From: Prevotella sp.
GTDB lineage: Bacteria > Bacteroidota > Bacteroidia > Bacteroidales > Bacteroidaceae
DNA length: 64,000 nucleotides
Assembly: GCA_022781445.1 (NCBI GenBank)
Contig: JALETQ010000017.1
Span: 62,001 to 126,000 of the forward strand
Direction of reading: 5' to 3'
This document shows positions 4,262 to 57,895 of the stretch, in pieces. The notes beneath the pieces are model-generated. The model saw only the letters and a list, made by a program, of their open reading frames with translations. It was not told the origin of the DNA and made no database searches. Position 1 is the first letter of the stretch. Every line of letters begins with the position of its first letter. Made by a program: the position numbers and the translations under genes.

Positions 4262-4345
4262 ACAATACCTGCCCTTTCATTAGGCAAAAGGGCAGGTATT
4301 GTGTGCTAAAAGGGCAGGTACCGGAAGACGAAAGGGCAACTTCGG
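4262..4345. repeat. 22-bp-period AAAAGGGCA array, copy A
   Basis: Units start at 4264 (inverted form), 4286, 4308 and 4330; 16-bp inverted arms ACAATACCTGCCCTTT / AAAGGGCAGGTATTGT (4262-4302). Confidence 0.8.
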
Positions 4346-4440
4346 ATTTTCAACCCAACGAGGTCTTAAACCGCAGCAAAAAACTTTCAAGTTGCTCTCG
4401 AAGTTTCCCGGGAGGACAACGGACGGAAAGCTTTATCTAT

Positions 4441-6768: not shown

Positions 6769-6837
6769 GAATATTGAAATCGGTATTGTGCGAAACGGTG
6801 AAAAGGAATCGAACTTATCAAAAAATCAAACAGGTTT

Positions 6838-7034
6838 ATCCCAAATCAGTCATCAGATTCGGACTTGGGGTCGTTTGATTGCCAAGCAAATGGACTGTCG
6901 CATTGTTACAGGCACGGCGGGATACGGCAAGACAAGACGACAAACCATTGCCGGACGGCAGACGAAACCGGACGGAAAGTGATATGAACAACAGCGAATG
7001 TATAAACAAACACTCTCATGACCGATTTGGGTTT
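6838..7034 (+). repeat. R1 intergenic repeat, near full-length copy
   Basis: CCCAAATCAGTCATCAGA ... ACGGCAAGACAAGACGACA ... ACGAAACCGGACGGAAAGTGATATGAACAACAG ... CTCTCATGACCGATTTGGGTTT. Confidence 0.85.
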
Positions 7035-7272
7035 AACAAGGATATATCGACAAATAAAGAAAAAAGGAGTCAAAATGATCTGTTTGATGTGTGGAAGGTG
7101 TGTTCGAAGCCTCGGCGAAGACGACTGCAAAAAGGCTGTACGCAAACGTACAAATTCATGAGAACCGAATGGTGAAAAGACACAATCAGGAGAAACATAG
7201 AGTATTAAGAATACAGAAAAGCATGGCAACCATGACAAGAGAAGTCAGGATTACCATGCTTGAGGACAGCCA

Positions 7273-22495: not shown

Positions 22496-22690
22496 ACATT
22501 TCAAAGCCAAATCGTTCATGAGATCGTTTGTTCCTACCTTTCATGCCGTTCATGGCACTTTCCGTCAGGTATCTCGTTTGATTGTCGGTGTCCTAATTGC
22601 CGATTCGCTTTGCCTTAGTCAGCGATGGCTGCCACAAGCCGACAATCAGACCGATCGACAGTCAGATGAAAACAATTCGGAATCCAACAA
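22496..22690 (-). repeat. R1 copy
   Basis: TTCATGAGATCGTTTGTT...TTTCATGCCGTTCATGGCACTTTCCGTCAGG, as at 23645. Confidence 0.7.
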
Positions 22691-22773
22691 CAGATTTTAC
22701 ATAAATATCTGTTTTCCAATTATTTATAAAGCATTCCACAATCAAACAGACAGAACGTGAGGTTTTACATGAC

Positions 22774-22850
22774 GAAAGGGCACGAATTATGGAACAAAAG
22801 CTGCCCTTCTGTGAGGCAAAAGGGCAACTTCCGGAAATCAAGCATGTTCC
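22774..22850. repeat. 22-bp-period AAAAGGGCA array, copy B
   Basis: Units at 22774 (GAAAGGGCA), 22796 (AAAAGCTGCCC), 22818 (AAAAGGGCA). Confidence 0.75.
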
Positions 22851-28971: not shown

Positions 28972-29150
28972 CATATATCCGCTCCGGTTTCGGCCGAAGA
29001 ACCTTTCCCCGCCCTGCAGCATGCCGCATCCGGAGCAGCGTGCCCGACGGTTCCGCGACTGGTGCCTGCCGGAACCTTCCGCGCTTCTTCCGCATCGCCC
29101 AGAAGCCTCCTTTGTTCCGGAAACAGACAAGAAAAGTCCAAGGACTTCTA

Positions 29151-29228
29151 TACACGTTTGTACAGCCTATTGTACACATTTGTATAGTCTGTTGTACACA
29201 TTTGTACAATAGGCTGTACAAACGTGTA
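29151..29228. repeat. 22-bp-period TTTGTACA array with a perfect 26-bp inverted repeat
   Basis: Units at 29157, 29179 and 29201; arms 29151-29176 TACACGTTTGTACAGCCTATTGTACA and 29203-29228, its exact reverse complement. Confidence 0.9.
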
Positions 29229-29459
29229 CAGATTTCTTGGGAGAATGATGTGCCGGAACCCGTTCACGTATCGCGTCCGCAAAGCCGTTTCCGCCCCGTT
29301 GACCGGTGGCAGGCATCGTGTTCCGGGACAGAAACGGACGGGTGTCCGCCCCAAGCGAGGGAGAAAGCGGAAGGACACGACCGACGGATTATTGCATCCA
29401 CGGCAAGGCAATTCCTTGTCTTTCCGGAAAAGAATTGCTATATTTGTGACCTCAACAGA

Positions 29460-35531: not shown

Positions 35532-35601
35532 CGAATTCCCAACCCGTTGAAAAATATTTCCCAACGGGTTGAGAAATATTTTTCAACGGGTTGGGAATTC
35601 G
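35532..35601. repeat. 22-bp-period CCAACGGGTTGA array with a perfect 28-bp inverted repeat
   Basis: CGAATTCCCAACCCGTTGAAAAATATTT / CCCAACGGGTTGAG / AAATATTTTTCAACGGGTTGGGAATTCG; units at 35538, 35560 and 35582. Confidence 0.92.
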
Positions 35602-42846: not shown

Positions 42847-43058
42847 ACCTATTTCTTTTTTTGTTGATTGTATCTGAATGGACAGAAAACCCAAAAGACA
42901 TTGTAAGTTTTCTCCGTGCAAAGATAATGAACAATAAGTGATAAAGCTCATCATTCCTCGATTATTTAAGAATTATTGGCATGTGCAAATGCGCGATTAC
43001 CGTCTTTCCTGATGCTTGACGACGGCTCACAATCCGTTGCCGGCAGATTCTTTTCGTC

Positions 43059-43316
43059 GGAAGGAAAGCGGCTCGGGAACCATGGAATGCAGGGTTAAAC
43101 GGTCTGATGAACGATTGAAGATTGCTTCCGGTTTCCTACCGGCATCGTGCCGACATGTTCCGCTCATGCTGCAAAAGGGCAGCTTCCGGAAGGCAAAAGG
43201 GCAAGAACTGTCTTATAAAAGGGCAAGAATGACAATCCAAAAGCTGCCCTTTTACAAGACCACTCATAAACGATTGATATACAATGCCGACAAGAAGTAC
43301 GGACTACTCCCTTCAA
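43059..43316 (+). repeat. Long direct repeat, copy 1 (contains 22-bp array C)
   Basis: About 258 bp, near-identical to 47892-48149, with about 7 mismatches by eye and no internal indel. Confidence 0.9.
43173..43260. repeat. 22-bp-period AAAAGGGCA array, copy C
   Basis: Units at 43173, 43195, 43217 (AAAAGGGCA) and 43239 (AAAAGCTGCCC). Confidence 0.88.
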
Positions 43317-43857
43317 AGAAGCATGAAAGAACCGCTTCTGTAGCGACATCATCGCCGGAGGCCTGCTCCCGAAGGGTCATCAGAGCCGAAACCGGTATCG
43401 GCAGATTACCGGCCGGATGGGGTGTCGGCTTGCGGAAGGCATGGCCGGCCACGGCAAGACAAAACGGCTCTCCGGATGAAGGAAAACGGACAATATACAG
43501 TCGGAAAGCCTCGAAAACGACATGAAAGCCAAAATACCGGACTGACAGCCGACAGGGGGATAAGCACAACAATCGGAATCAGACATACGGATATACGACC
43601 CATGACGGGTAAGCAGATATTCCCGGGGAGGACATGGCTCGGGAGTTGTATGAACGGATTGGGATATATTATATATGGCAACGATGATAATTGCAAATGC
43701 TTCTCATAACAAAGAATCAGTCAATTGGCAAGAGAGATTTATGATTTGCTTACAGATACAGAAATATACAAAAAAAATTTGCTGCATGAACAAAAACTTT
43801 TATATTTGCAGGACTAATAAACATAATTTGTCAACAACGTAAATCAATTTACGCAAC

Positions 43858-44115
43858 ATGAATAAATTTATTTTAGTAGTAGGGTTGGCATTAAGTTTTT
43901 ACTCTTTGATGCCGTTAACAACATATGCAAACGGATCCGGAAAAATTGATCCGAGATATTTTGAACAAGGTCATTTGTTTGATGTAAAGAAAGTAGGCTT
44001 AATTACTGTTGACGGAGTAGAGCATATACTTTATGAAGCAGTAACTCGTGAAGGAGTTGTTATAACGTATTGGGTCAACGACAAAGGAGAGGCTGTTACT
44101 GTACCAAATAAATAG
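43858..44115 (+). CDS. Small secreted protein (85 aa), unknown family
   Basis: Signal peptide MNKFILVVGLALSFYSLMPLTTYAN then GSGKIDPRYFEQGHLFDVKKVGLITVDGVEHILYEAVTREGVVITYWVNDKGEAVTVPNK; followed by a terminator. Confidence 0.7.
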   Translation: MNKFILVVGLALSFYSLMPLTTYANGSGKIDPRYFEQGHLFDVKKVGLITVDGVEHILYEAVTREGVVITYWVNDKGEAVTVPNK

Positions 44116-44123
44116 TAGACGAT

Positions 44124-44172
44124 ATTACCAACCTTGCTAAATTATAAAAACAGGGTTGGTAATGTTGTTTTT
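44124..44172 (+). terminator. Terminator after the 85-aa gene
   Basis: ATTACCAACC...GGTTGGTAAT followed by GTTGTTTTTA. Confidence 0.7.
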
Positions 44173-44281
44173 ATTCAACTACTTCATTCACTACAACAAA
44201 TCATTTGGAGTTTTCAAATTGTGACACTTTAAGAACCAATAGTATCCAATTAATTACCGACAGTTATTTCAATACGACAAC

Positions 44282-45133
44282 ATGAAACCATTCAAATCAA
44301 TCTGTCTGACATTCGTCTGTCTTTTGATGATAAGCCTTGCTGCCCATGCCCAACAGCCGCAGGGGAAGTATCTCCGCATCGTTTATAATACCAAATACAA
44401 CACTCGTAAGAATATTAAACCTAAATACGACCTGCAATACCTTGAAATAACCGACAGCATATCCTACTTTTACAGCTATTATGATTGGCGAACAAGAGAA
44501 GTTGAAGACAGTTTGAACCGGAGAGGGAACTTCGATATCAGCCTGAGAGCAAAATTGAGTCAGCCTTATGCCACGGGACAATTATATAGGATTCACAAAG
44601 GAGAGCCCCGGAGAAACTTTCTCACCGGTCTGGTTATAGACATTGACGCCTTTAAATATGTCGAAGAACTACCCGATTTCAAATGGAAAATTCTGAACAG
44701 GGACTCGACCATCGCCGGCTATCCGTGCCAACAGGCCACCACCCGATTCAGAGGACGCACATGGAACGTGTGGTTCACGCCCGACATTCCCGTCTCAGAC
44801 GGGCCGTGGAAGTTCTGCGGACTGCCGGGACTCATCCTGAAAGCCGAAGACACCGACCATTATTTCGACTTCGAATGTGCAGGCATCCAGCACATCGACC
44901 ATTGCAACGCGAAATCAAATTCCCGATTCAAGTATCAGGAATGCACACCGCAAGAGTACTTCAAGACGCTCAAAGAAATCAAAAGTAACCCCATCGGCTA
45001 TATCCGGATGAGGAATTCCGGACAAAGCGGAGAAGAGGATGATATTCAAAGAAAAACCGATATCCGGAACAAACCCGAGGAACTGGCGAAAATCATCTAC
45101 ATCGAAGACTACGATGCGGCAGAGGAAAAATGA
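44282..45133 (+). CDS. GLPGLI-family protein
   Basis: Signal peptide; diagnostic PWKFCGLPGLILKAEDTDHYFDFECAGIQ. Confidence 0.93.
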   Translation: MKPFKSICLTFVCLLMISLAAHAQQPQGKYLRIVYNTKYNTRKNIKPKYDLQYLEITDSISYFYSYYDWRTREVEDSLNRRGNFDISLRAKLSQPYATGQLYRIHKGEPRRNFLTGLVIDIDAFKYVEELPDFKWKILNRDSTIAGYPCQQATTRFRGRTWNVWFTPDIPVSDGPWKFCGLPGLILKAEDTDHYFDFECAGIQHIDHCNAKSNSRFKYQECTPQEYFKTLKEIKSNPIGYIRMRNSGQSGEEDDIQRKTDIRNKPEELAKIIYIEDYDAAEEK

Positions 45134-45137
45134 CCCC

Positions 45138-47693
45138 ATGAAACACATCATCTCCATGCTCATAGGGTTGTTGCTGGGCACGTTGACGGCAGAAGCCCAG
45201 CACTTCAACGGCATCGTGAAAGATACCGAAGGCAACAAGCTGGCGCGAGTATCTGTGGTTTTGCTCGACAAGAAGAATCTCATCTTGTCTTACACCATCA
45301 CGAAAGACAACGGTGCCTTCAGCGTGGACGTCCCCGAAGGGAAAGAAGCCGCCAAGATCAAGTTCAGTTCGGTGGGATATGCCGCCGACACCACCGCCGT
45401 TTCGGACTTCAAGAACAATCAAGTGGTCGTGATGAACCCGGGCGTGACGATGATCAAAGAAGTGAAAGTGCAGGCCAGAGCCATCAAACAACGGGGCGAC
45501 ACCATCGACTATCTGGTGAGTTCGTTCAAGAAAGAACAAGACCGTTCCATCGCCGACGTGATAGCAAGGATGGCAGGAATGGAAGTCAAAAAAGACGGAA
45601 CCATCCTCTATCAAGGCAAAGCCATCAACAAGTTTTATGTGGAAGGAATGGACATGATGGGCGGAAAGTACTCGATGATCAGCGAGAACCTCACGCCCGA
45701 CAAGGTGAGAAAGGTGCAGGTTTTTGAAAATCATCAGCCCATCAAGACCCTCAAGAACGTGGACTTCAGCGAGAACGCGGCTCTCAACATCGTCTTGAAA
45801 GAAGATGCAAAGAACGTGTGGCAGACTTTGTTTGAGGCGGGATCGGGCATCACCTTGCAGGATGATGCCAAGGCCCTGTTCGACATCAGGCTGCTCGGCA
45901 TGCTGTTTTCCAAGAAGAAACAGAGCTTGTCGATGTATAAATTCAACAACACGGGCAAGGACATCCGACACGAGATGACAACCCATTCCATCTTCGAAGG
46001 ACAAGTAAGGACGGAGTATTCCTTGTTGTCGGACATCTCTTTGGGAGGCAGTTCGCTCGACGACAACCGCACCTTGTTCAACAATACCCATCTGCTGGCC
46101 AACAACTGGCTCTTCAAACTGAACGACGACTGCGAGTTGAGGACACAGGTTTCGACACAGTTCGACAAGACAACGGCGGAAAGTTACAGCCATACCGTCT
46201 ATACGAGCCTCATCGGCGACTCGGTGATAGCCCAACAGAGGGATGCCCGACGCTACAATTCCGAATACACGGGAGAGCTGCTGTTCAGATACAACAACGA
46301 CAAACTCTATCTCAACAACACCCTGAACGGCTATATGGACTTCGACCGAAGCATGAGTCACACGCTCTTGAACGGCACGACGAAAGCCGAGAAAGTGAAA
46401 CCGAGACAACGATACCTCACCGACAAGCTACGCCTCATCAAGAACATCAACAACAAAAAATCGTTCGAACTGGATGCCTATTTCTCCTACAACTACCTGC
46501 CGGGCACCCTCCTGATTTCCAACGGAAGTGTCGAAGAGCTCAACCTCAGGACAGTGATGTGGGGTGCTTCGACCAACTTCCGGCATCCTTTATGGGGTCT
46601 TGATGTCTGCTACCGGATAGAAACAGAGGGCAAGAGTCAAAAGCTGCAGGTCAATAATTTCATGGTCAATGACGAAGACTCGTTTACCGAACAGAAGTTG
46701 ACTGTCGAGCCTTCCGTCACCTATTTTACCCCCGCTTTGAATATCTCGGCTTTCATCCCGCTGAACTTGCGCTATCAGTCGTTTAACGGCAAGCAGCAGA
46801 CAAAGCTGAAGGCAGAACCCGGAATCTCCCTGCGCTTCACCCCGTTTAACCGATGGACGTTCATGACTTTCTACAATCTGAGCTGGACTCCTTCGGATAT
46901 CAGGATGACAAGCATGATGCCTTTCTTCTCCGACTACATCGTCATGCGAAGAGGATACGGCAAGCCTGTCTATCAGAAGTATCAGACACTGAACGGAAGC
47001 GTCGAATACAAAGACATCTTTCACAAGCTGTTTGCACGGATGCAGGCATATTTCAGCCGGTCGGACAATAATATTTTATACCGCAGCGCGATAAACCCCG
47101 AGTTCTTTTTTTACCAAAGCGAACCCACCGACCGGTTCACCTTCAACAAGAGTTTCTCGATCAATGCTTCGCTGAGCAAGAACTTCGACTGGCTGAAAAG
47201 CGGCGTGACGCTCTCCGCCCGAAAAGGAACAACGAAGACCGAACTGCTGTACGGCGAGGAACTTCAACCCATCCGTCTCGACAACGGCGGCATATCTCTC
47301 AGCTGTTCGGTAGACCCTGTGGCTTGGCTTTCGGTCGACGCAGCATTGAATTTCAATTATACCAAACAGAAAAACGAATATAGAACCGGCACGCCAAGCC
47401 CCACGCTGACTTACTTCAACCATTCGCTGAGAGCCTCACTGACCTTCGGGAAATGGCTGATACAAACACGAAACGAACTCTATCACAGCAACAACGAAAG
47501 CGTATCGACGACATTCTTCTCGGATCTCAAGGTGAGATATTCGAGGAAGAAAATAGAAATCGCCCTGGCGCTCAACAACATCTTCGGCAAGAATAAGTTT
47601 GAAAGACGAGTCGTCACCGAGACAACAAACGCCTACTACATGCAGAAGCTGCGTCCGAGAGAGGTGTTGCTGAGCTTTGCTTACGGCATCTGA
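45138..47693 (+). CDS. TonB-dependent receptor-like outer membrane protein with N-terminal carboxypeptidase-regulatory-like domain
   Basis: EAQHFNGIVKDTEGNKLARVSVVLLDKKNLILSYTITKDNGAFSVDVPEG; DYLVSSFKKEQDRSIADVIARMAGMEVKKDGTILYQGKAINKFYVEGMDM. Confidence 0.88.
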   Translation: MKHIISMLIGLLLGTLTAEAQHFNGIVKDTEGNKLARVSVVLLDKKNLILSYTITKDNGAFSVDVPEGKEAAKIKFSSVGYAADTTAVSDFKNNQVVVMNPGVTMIKEVKVQARAIKQRGDTIDYLVSSFKKEQDRSIADVIARMAGMEVKKDGTILYQGKAINKFYVEGMDMMGGKYSMISENLTPDKVRKVQVFENHQPIKTLKNVDFSENAALNIVLKEDAKNVWQTLFEAGSGITLQDDAKALFDIRLLGMLFSKKKQSLSMYKFNNTGKDIRHEMTTHSIFEGQVRTEYSLLSDISLGGSSLDDNRTLFNNTHLLANNWLFKLNDDCELRTQVSTQFDKTTAESYSHTVYTSLIGDSVIAQQRDARRYNSEYTGELLFRYNNDKLYLNNTLNGYMDFDRSMSHTLLNGTTKAEKVKPRQRYLTDKLRLIKNINNKKSFELDAYFSYNYLPGTLLISNGSVEELNLRTVMWGASTNFRHPLWGLDVCYRIETEGKSQKLQVNNFMVNDEDSFTEQKLTVEPSVTYFTPALNISAFIPLNLRYQSFNGKQQTKLKAEPGISLRFTPFNRWTFMTFYNLSWTPSDIRMTSMMPFFSDYIVMRRGYGKPVYQKYQTLNGSVEYKDIFHKLFARMQAYFSRSDNNILYRSAINPEFFFYQSEPTDRFTFNKSFSINASLSKNFDWLKSGVTLSARKGTTKTELLYGEELQPIRLDNGGISLSCSVDPVAWLSVDAALNFNYTKQKNEYRTGTPSPTLTYFNHSLRASLTFGKWLIQTRNELYHSNNESVSTTFFSDLKVRYSRKKIEIALALNNIFGKNKFERRVVTETTNAYYMQKLRPREVLLSFAYGI

Positions 47694-47891
47694 CGGTCGG
47701 AAATTCCGGCTGCCCACATTTGGTTGCAGCCCTTTTCCATGACCATACACGACGTTTTTCACATGTCTTCATCCCAATTGTTCATCCGACTCCAAGCAAT
47801 TTCATCCGACTGGCGACGGCTTGAGTGAAGGCATGACCGGCGATGTCAAGACAAAACGGATCTTCGGATACCGCAACAAGCGGACGAAAAC

Positions 47892-48149
47892 GGAAGGAAA
47901 GCGGCTCGGGAACCATGAAATGCAGGGTTAAACGGTCTGATGAACGATTGAAGATTGCTTCCGGTTTCCTACCGGCATCGTGCCGACATGTTCCGCTCAT
48001 GCTGCAAAAGGGCAGCTTCCGGAAGGCAAAAGGGCAAGAACTGTCTTGTAAAAGGGCAAGAATGACAAGCCAAAAGCTGCCCTTTTACAAGACCACTCAT
48101 AAGCGGTTGATATACAATGCCGACATGAAGTACGGACTACTCCCTTCAA
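47892..48149 (+). repeat. Long direct repeat, copy 2 (contains 22-bp array D)
   Basis: Near-identical to 43059-43316; AAAAGGGCA units from 48006 at 22-bp spacing. Confidence 0.9.
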
Positions 48150-52095: not shown

Positions 52096-52380
52096 AAATT
52101 CTTTTTGTTAAACGGTTTATATTATTTTCTATCGGAAACTTTTGCAAATATAAAACGCAAATGTTTACCGTACAAATTTTCCAACGGAAAAATTATCAGA
52201 CAAAGAAATATTTAACGCATCCGAAGCAAAAATACGTTCCAATTAAAGAGTTTTTACAGATTCATCGGCTCCATCCCACCTCAGGCAGACTGCCCTCTTC
52301 CACCATCATCGTGATGTGGCGGCAACGCGAATTGCGCATACAAAAAAAACGGAACATGAGCCGGCATCGGAAAGAATGTC

Positions 52381-52466
52381 TGAAGAAAGAACATGAAAGA
52401 CCGAAGAAAGAAACATAAATCCCTGAAGAAGATACCCGAATCCCTAAAGAAGAGACTTAAAGACCA
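52381..52466. repeat. Degenerate ~21-bp tandem repeat (about 4 units)
   Basis: TGAAGAAAGAACATGAAAGAC / CGAAGAAAGAAACATAAATCCC / TGAAGAAGATACCCGAATCCC / TAAAGAAGAGACTTAAAGACC. Confidence 0.7.
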
Positions 52467-55319: not shown

Positions 55320-55405
55320 CAGGTCCTTTTATAAAACAAAACCAGCCCTTTTGCCTCTCAAACCCTGCCCTTTTGCCGCATGAAACCTGCCCTTCGGCAA
55401 AACCG
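55320..55405. repeat. 22-bp-period AAAAGGGCA array, copy E (inverted)
   Basis: TGCCCTTTT-type units at 55323, 55345, 55367 and 55389, exactly 22 bp apart. Confidence 0.88.
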
Positions 55406-55483: not shown

Positions 55484-55675
55484 CCCCAATCTGCCATGAG
55501 AGCGTCCGGTTCTACATTTCATGACATTCATGTCACTTTCCGTCCGATTCCGTTCGTTTGCCGGCAGCCTGTCTGTCGGTTTGTCTTGTCATGAACCGCC
55601 ACGACCGTGAAAACCGACAATCAACCGGCCCGGCAATGAAACGATACCGACCTGGAATCATAACCGACCGGGGGT
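55484..55675 (-). repeat. R1 copy
   Basis: CCCAATCTGCCATGAGAGCGTCCGGTTCTACATTTCATGACATTCATGTCACTTTCCGTCCGATTCC. Confidence 0.65.
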
Positions 55676-57482: not shown

Positions 57483-57707
57483 GATACAAAAATATATTTT
57501 AATGTTATTGTATGAGGTTATGACAAAACGGCAACACGATAACAGTCTTCACTTTTCGAAGAATGCCGGTTTCTTTGTTGCCAAGCAAACCGGCACTCTC
57601 GGGTAAACCGGTCGGCATCACCGACATTCGTCATGGCAAAGATAGCGAATGTTTTGCAAAAAAACGACGTGAAGCAGTAACACACACATAGATCTGATGA
57701 AATAAAC

Positions 57708-57895
57708 CCAAATCGGTCATTAGATTCCGAATCGGTTTCGTTTGATGGTCGGCAGATGGTTTGTCGGTTTGTTGCAGGCGTAGCGGGCCACCAAAACAAA
57801 CCGACAGCAAGATGTCGGCCGACGGACGAAACCGGCCGGAAAGTGACATGAACGACAGGAGATGTATAAACAAACGCTCTCATGACCGATTAGGA
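57708..57895 (+). repeat. R1 intergenic repeat, near full-length copy
   Basis: AACCCAAATCGGTCATTAGATTCCGAATCGGTTTCGTTTGATGGTCGGCAG...GGAAAGTGACATGAACGACAGGAGATGTATAAACAAACGCTCTCATGACCGATTAGG. Confidence 0.85.

Follow-up and report, generated by a model that had tools for sequence, protein, structure and literature searches.

The array of short repeats at 55323-55398 raises the question of what keeps a motif at exactly 22-bp spacing while much of the sequence between its copies varies. The locus lies in a window of 64,000 nucleotides (G000:C12:62001-126000) from a Prevotella sp. genome of 2.39 Mb in 65 contigs. A preliminary description of the window had reported this spacing at five loci, with about 13 variable bases per unit and usually one inverted unit per array, and had proposed either protein binding to one DNA face or a structured RNA. 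Units of the AAAAGGGC type were found in 22-bp register at all five loci, and the same-strand AAAAGGGCA/AAAGGGCA pairs lying within 150 bp of each other in the window were all 22 or 44 bp apart. The five loci are not the full set, since two further 22-bp arrays of other sequences are present at 29150-29232 and 35533-35600. The arrays of the window, family A being that of the five loci, are the following:

4263-4350, plus strand: family-A array of four 22-bp units in the orientation - + + +, intergenic
22774-22840, plus strand: family-A array of three units in the orientation + - +, intergenic
29150-29232, no strand assigned: family-C array of TGTACA palindromes spaced alternately by 10 and 12 bp (22-bp period), as a whole an inverted repeat, intergenic
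35533-35600, no strand assigned: family-B array of three CAACNNGTTG units at 22 bp, in a convergent gap
43172-43255, plus strand: family-A array of four units in the orientation + + + -, intergenic
48005-48088, plus strand: family-A array of four units (+ + + -), a near-duplicate of 43172-43255, at a convergent gene pair
55323-55398, minus strand: family-A array of three to four minus-strand units, the outer ones degenerate

The near-identity of the arrays at 43173 and 48006 results from a duplication that includes their surroundings (98 bp at 99%). With identical flanks, these two arrays bracket (43172-48095) a gene with a Porph_ging domain and a gene with a CarboxypepD_reg-like domain. An ORF that overlaps the first of them (43016-43525) has no family match and falls below the coding score. 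The entire 68 bp of 35533-35600 form a near-perfect palindrome (GAATTCCCAAC...GTTGGGAATTC). The gene neighbours of the window arrays are varied and ordinary, with no replication initiator setting. As for the unit positions first listed, the register was correct but the identity of the units was not always so: 22774 and 4330 carry GAAAGGGCA, with one mismatch, 22796 is an inverted unit and 55389 is a degenerate CCTGCCCTTCGG.

The spacing proved to be equally sharp on the scale of the genome, as had been anticipated. The pattern AAAAGGGCA-N(0-30)-AAAAGGGCA gave 35 matches, all 35 of them at 22 bp, and the reversed-motif control gave none; the single 9-mer AAAAGGGCA occurs 175 times in the whole genome vs 31 times for its reversed control. 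The unit is a quasi-palindrome, AAAAGGGCAGSTTTT, whose centre repeats every 22 bp. The consensus over 141 units is AAAAGGGCA[GA][GC]TTT[TC], with the arms AAAAG/STTTT and with neither a GTAG nor a CGTC tag. When the arrays are printed in register, a 5-bp core appears in either orientation about one centre, which explains the inverted CTGCCCTTTT previously seen in register. Most arrays have 3-5 units, and degenerate units still keep the register at 44 or 66 bp. Only about 9-15 of each 22 bp are conserved; the filler is thus variable, as had been stated, but not unconstrained, its positions 10-15 tending to GGTTTT/ACTTTC. One family-A array, L161:19292-19424 (G000:C6:64890-64986), consists of five perfect tandem copies of AAAAGGGCAGGTTTGATACGAT, which is a recent local expansion.

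The choice of AAAAGGGCA as the key to these loci had to be abandoned. Many 22-bp arrays share nothing with it, and the general feature is the period together with the palindromic build, AAAAGGGCA being one sequence among many. Family B (CAACNNGTTG with AAATATTT linkers) was found at six sites including 35533-35600, and further 22-bp palindrome families are built on TGTACA, AGTACT, TGACGTCA, ATATGACGTCATAT, CTTATAAG and others. Autocorrelation of 683 kb of the genome, a sample partly picked around family A, detected 43 loci with period 22, and no other period between 15 and 39 exceeded 4 loci. In 144 kb comprising the window and four stretches picked regardless of arrays, 10 loci had period 22 and 0-3 had each other period. 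In this genome the array alone is conserved, its flanks having no common sequence and forming no larger element; such shared flanks as occur come from a separate MITE-like repeat of ~203 bp.

With one genome scanned per species, real 22-bp family-A arrays were found, among the matches listed, in at least P. histicola, Segatella baroniae, Xylanibacter caecicola and uncultured Prevotella, all of them Prevotella in the broad sense. The pattern test for family A gave an all-or-none result in the same GTDB genus: three of ten genomes have 49-71 pairs and seven have none. Four other members of the genus, represented by small unselected samples, have 22-bp palindrome arrays of their own, e.g. AAAAGCTATGCTTTT and TGGGTAAT..ATTACCCA, and autocorrelation gave 15 loci at period 22, the next highest value being 8 at period 21.

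In P. histicola and in a P. melaninogenica-like genome (G056, its species name being inferred), family A is contained in a fixed element of about 245-260 bp with sharp ends. The element has five 22-bp units with position-specific linkers and, on one side, an inverted pair TTTGTAAC...GTTAYAAA; its ends are similar direct repeats, GAAAATN2TTACAAA, and not terminal inverted repeats. In 800 kb, 39 of 44 family-A elements are identical in length and one is shorter by exactly 22 bp, with a mean pairwise identity of the 44 of about 69%. The identity to the nearest paralogue does not exceed 93% for A, 83% for the family designated fam3 and 94% for fam2. The lack of near-identical paralogues means that there is no sign of recent copying, and the old copies, which are not shortened, keep their structure. 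In the P. histicola family-A elements inspected, the core orientation switches at most once over the five units (---++, -++++).

The placement of the arrays was analysed with genes predicted by a codon-score caller, not with curated annotation. None of 43 family-A arrays examined in the window's genome lies in a predicted gene; an equal frequency inside coding sequences would have spoken against the preliminary description. Similarly, the 205 arrays of three families in 1.6 Mb of G056 (70 of family A, 105 of fam3, CGCACCATTGGTGCG, and 30 of fam2, TTTTCATGAAAA) are all outside predicted genes. An occupied gap nearly always has a single array, and the families avoid each other: 10 gaps in G056 are multiply occupied, vs about 44 expected from length-weighted random placement (minimum 33 in 1000 draws). 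When profiles from the first 800 kb were applied to the held-out second 800 kb, 6 gaps were multiply occupied vs 20 expected.

Convergent gaps are preferred. Among G056 gaps of more than 300 bp, 64 of 94 convergent ones (68%) are occupied vs 120 of 321 others (37%; p=1.6e-7), and the excess is greatest in the shorter gaps once element length is subtracted. The window's genome gave a similar result (17/30 convergent gaps vs 34/126 others, p=0.004). About two thirds of the arrays are outside convergent gaps. The distance is typically 100-400 bp to the nearest 3' end and usually more than 200 bp to gene starts. Orientation relative to genes, which the preliminary description had proposed to examine, followed no rule for family A, and the arrays keep no set distance from either end of a gene. 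On these grounds, and because the arrays are not consistently close to promoters, a transcription-factor operator and a 5' RNA (5'-UTR) element were rejected. A profile search hinted at a replication polarity of fam3; orientation of the elements by an unsupervised procedure using flanks only showed no relation to the replichore (p=0.53), and the signal is treated as a composition or training artefact.

The same gaps could be compared between species at a few sites. Nine P. histicola family-A sites were matched on both sides to G056, where seven of the gaps hold an array: fam3 in six, and A plus fam2 in one; the other two are short and empty. At three sites of a further genome of the same genus (G092), family A is common to G056 at the same place. 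These data are only suggestive that a gap tends to stay occupied although the family that occupies it can change, as if the families were exchangeable. The seven of nine shared sites are weak evidence for a conserved position because general gap occupancy is about 44%. A few array-flanking genes are shared between species, a number not clearly above chance. At two P. histicola loci (L040 and L058), synteny with G056 breaks at arrays, fam3 near 572.3 kb and fam2 near 214.8 kb, as would be expected if inversions took place at the arrays or at the gaps that hold them.

The exact period, the dyads, the single geometry common to unrelated sequences, the rigid length, the intergenic location and the mutual avoidance are most simply accounted for by lined-up protein dimers, and the preference for convergent gaps suggests that adjacent transcription units are insulated from each other, either by a roadblock or by control of supercoiling. 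We therefore favour, tentatively, the reading that the arrays are sites for oligomerising protein dimers which mark boundaries between transcription units; the binding, the oligomerisation and the boundary role are all three deductions, and the last of them is drawn from placement statistics based on codon-score gene calls. Several dimers would sit side by side along the same face of the helix at intervals of two turns (22 bp), and contacts between neighbours would produce a short nucleoprotein assembly, 3-5 units long. Every sequence family may have a dedicated protein, the proteins of the different families being paralogues. Such an assembly would separate adjacent transcription units, especially those of convergent genes. 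It would do so by blocking read-through transcription or by retaining or relaxing the supercoils that accumulate there, and one assembly per gap would satisfy the function. We consider a stronger form of the idea doubtful, namely that such boundaries are a class set by geometry (dyads every 11 bp, a 22-bp period and 3-5 units) and not by sequence, with fast-diverging paralogous proteins and with unrelated families replacing each other at the same gene boundary. A protein on one DNA face is thus the better of the two options offered at the outset, but no protein was identified. Two candidates were rejected as the cognate protein, HU-HIG (PF18291), with 6-65 copies per genome, and Lrp/AsnC, with 2-3 copies per genome, neither of which showed a link to the arrays. 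The highest HU-HIG number was found in G092, with 65 matches vs 6-19 in the seven other genomes searched.

The main rival is that these are old miniature mobile elements kept in safe places. Several families, now inactive, would have spread in trans and survived chiefly in convergent gaps, and the 22-bp repeats would be binding sites of the mobilising enzyme. We regard this as rather unlikely, yet much is in keeping with it: the high copy number, the patchiness between species (3 of 10 same-genus genomes), the stereotyped, sharp-ended 245-260-bp element of P. melaninogenica and P. histicola, the occurrence of one family in one species and another family in the next at a shared gap, and the two short, empty gaps among the nine orthologous ones. 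Convergent gaps are also the safest location for any inert insertion, and a MITE containing a tandem repeat, BrickBuilt, is known from P. gingivalis (PMC4596501). Against mobile elements, the ends are similar direct repeats and not terminal inverted repeats, the copies are neither near-identical nor truncated with age, and the window's genome conserves the array only, with no larger element. Moreover, the Y1/RAYT transposase (PF01797) is absent from all four array-bearing genomes tested (G000, G056, G092 and P. histicola), so that a RAYT/REP origin was rejected; no matches to plasmid or phage records were found with the few sequences compared; and avoidance of gaps that hold an unrelated family would not be expected of such elements.

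An improbable alternative places the function at the RNA level, with tandem 3'-UTR hairpins ending transcription from both sides or protecting transcript ends. The convergent bias would agree with it, and folding is somewhat more stable than that of shuffled sequences on both strands (z about -2 to -4), but palindromes give such stability anyway. Against it, the usual distance to the nearest 3' end is 100-400 bp, the loop-less and AT-only palindromes of some families make poor hairpins, and the element keeps its length even where its sequence is weakly conserved. RNase P was the only Rfam family matched in the window. Loop-less perfect palindromes (TGACGTCA, TGTACA) together with the constant length favour a DNA-protein assembly over an RNA fold. 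It is very improbable that the arrays are iterons or decoys for replication initiators of phages or plasmids. Phage contigs do carry AAAAGGGCA arrays with the 22-bp period, which puts the same geometry in a known initiator-binding context, and the two examined lie within O-like replication initiation genes. The chromosomal arrays, however, number hundreds of copies per chromosome, dispersed in more than 100 gaps. In 2.9 million viral contigs, the patterns of four Prevotella families gave no arrays, the single matches being due to chance, and phage and plasmid records do not contain the P. melaninogenica element, an absence established with few sequences; a plasmid or phage origin was rejected on these grounds. 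The viral contigs with 22-bp AAAAGGGCA arrays are L142, L144, L145, L147, L149, L153, L155 and L156, and those in the O-like genes of L149 and L142 are apparently lambda-type origin iterons.

Several known systems resemble the arrays in part. Like the REP and BIME elements of Escherichia and Pseudomonas, they are high-copy, intergenic, placed in gene gaps and made of palindromic units that flip orientation; unlike them, they come without RAYT, lack the GTAG/CGTC tag in the family-A consensus and keep a strict 22-bp period common to unrelated families. Gyrase and IHF are among the proteins that bind BIMEs and REPs. Binding of several proteins to these elements is reported (PMC2817692). BrickBuilt likewise comes from the Bacteroidales and is a dispersed intergenic element with short tandem repeats. 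It has 23-nt repeats of one sequence in up to about 23 near-identical copies and IS-type terminal inverted repeats (PMC4596501), unlike the 22-bp Prevotella arrays with their 3-5 diverged palindromic units, several families and no terminal inverted repeats; earlier work cited in that paper described 22-nt tandem repeats in P. gingivalis W83. The initiator sites of phage and plasmid origins (lambda-O type) are also repeated about two helical turns apart, but iterons belong to one origin per replicon, in or next to the initiator gene, and the Prevotella arrays are dispersed in hundreds. Lrp/AsnC proteins act as oligomers that wrap DNA and occupy several palindromes an integral number of helical turns apart. 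The arrays differ from Lrp/AsnC operators in that 2-3 such genes per genome stand against many array families and in that they are not at promoters. The long identical repeats, unique spacers and many units of CRISPR-type loci were not found, the arrays having 3-5 units and a core that flips.

No report of such arrays in Prevotella was found in the open-access literature searched, and they look like an undescribed protein-bound boundary system and not like a chance repeat. If this is true, a major human-associated genus has unrecognised chromosome-wide protein-binding boundaries at a density of roughly one per 8 kb, with a fast-changing sequence but a lasting geometry and placement. They would then allow a direct test of transcription-unit insulation in bacteria and of the divergence of DNA-binding specificity. 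Even as mobile relics, unrelated families with one exact period and mutual avoidance would need a common mechanism, and none was described in the open-access literature searched.

The dispersed MITE-like repeat of ~203 bp, which is separate from the arrays, has the terminal inverted repeats AACCCAAATCGGTCAT/ATGACCGATTTGGGTT and occurs in the window at 6835-7036, 22503-22697, 55484-55667 and 57705-57894. With 75 matches in 683 kb, it is abundant in the intergenic gaps of the window's genome. A 21-bp tandem array with ~4 copies of CTGAAGAAGAAACATAAATCC lies between genes at 52380-52461.
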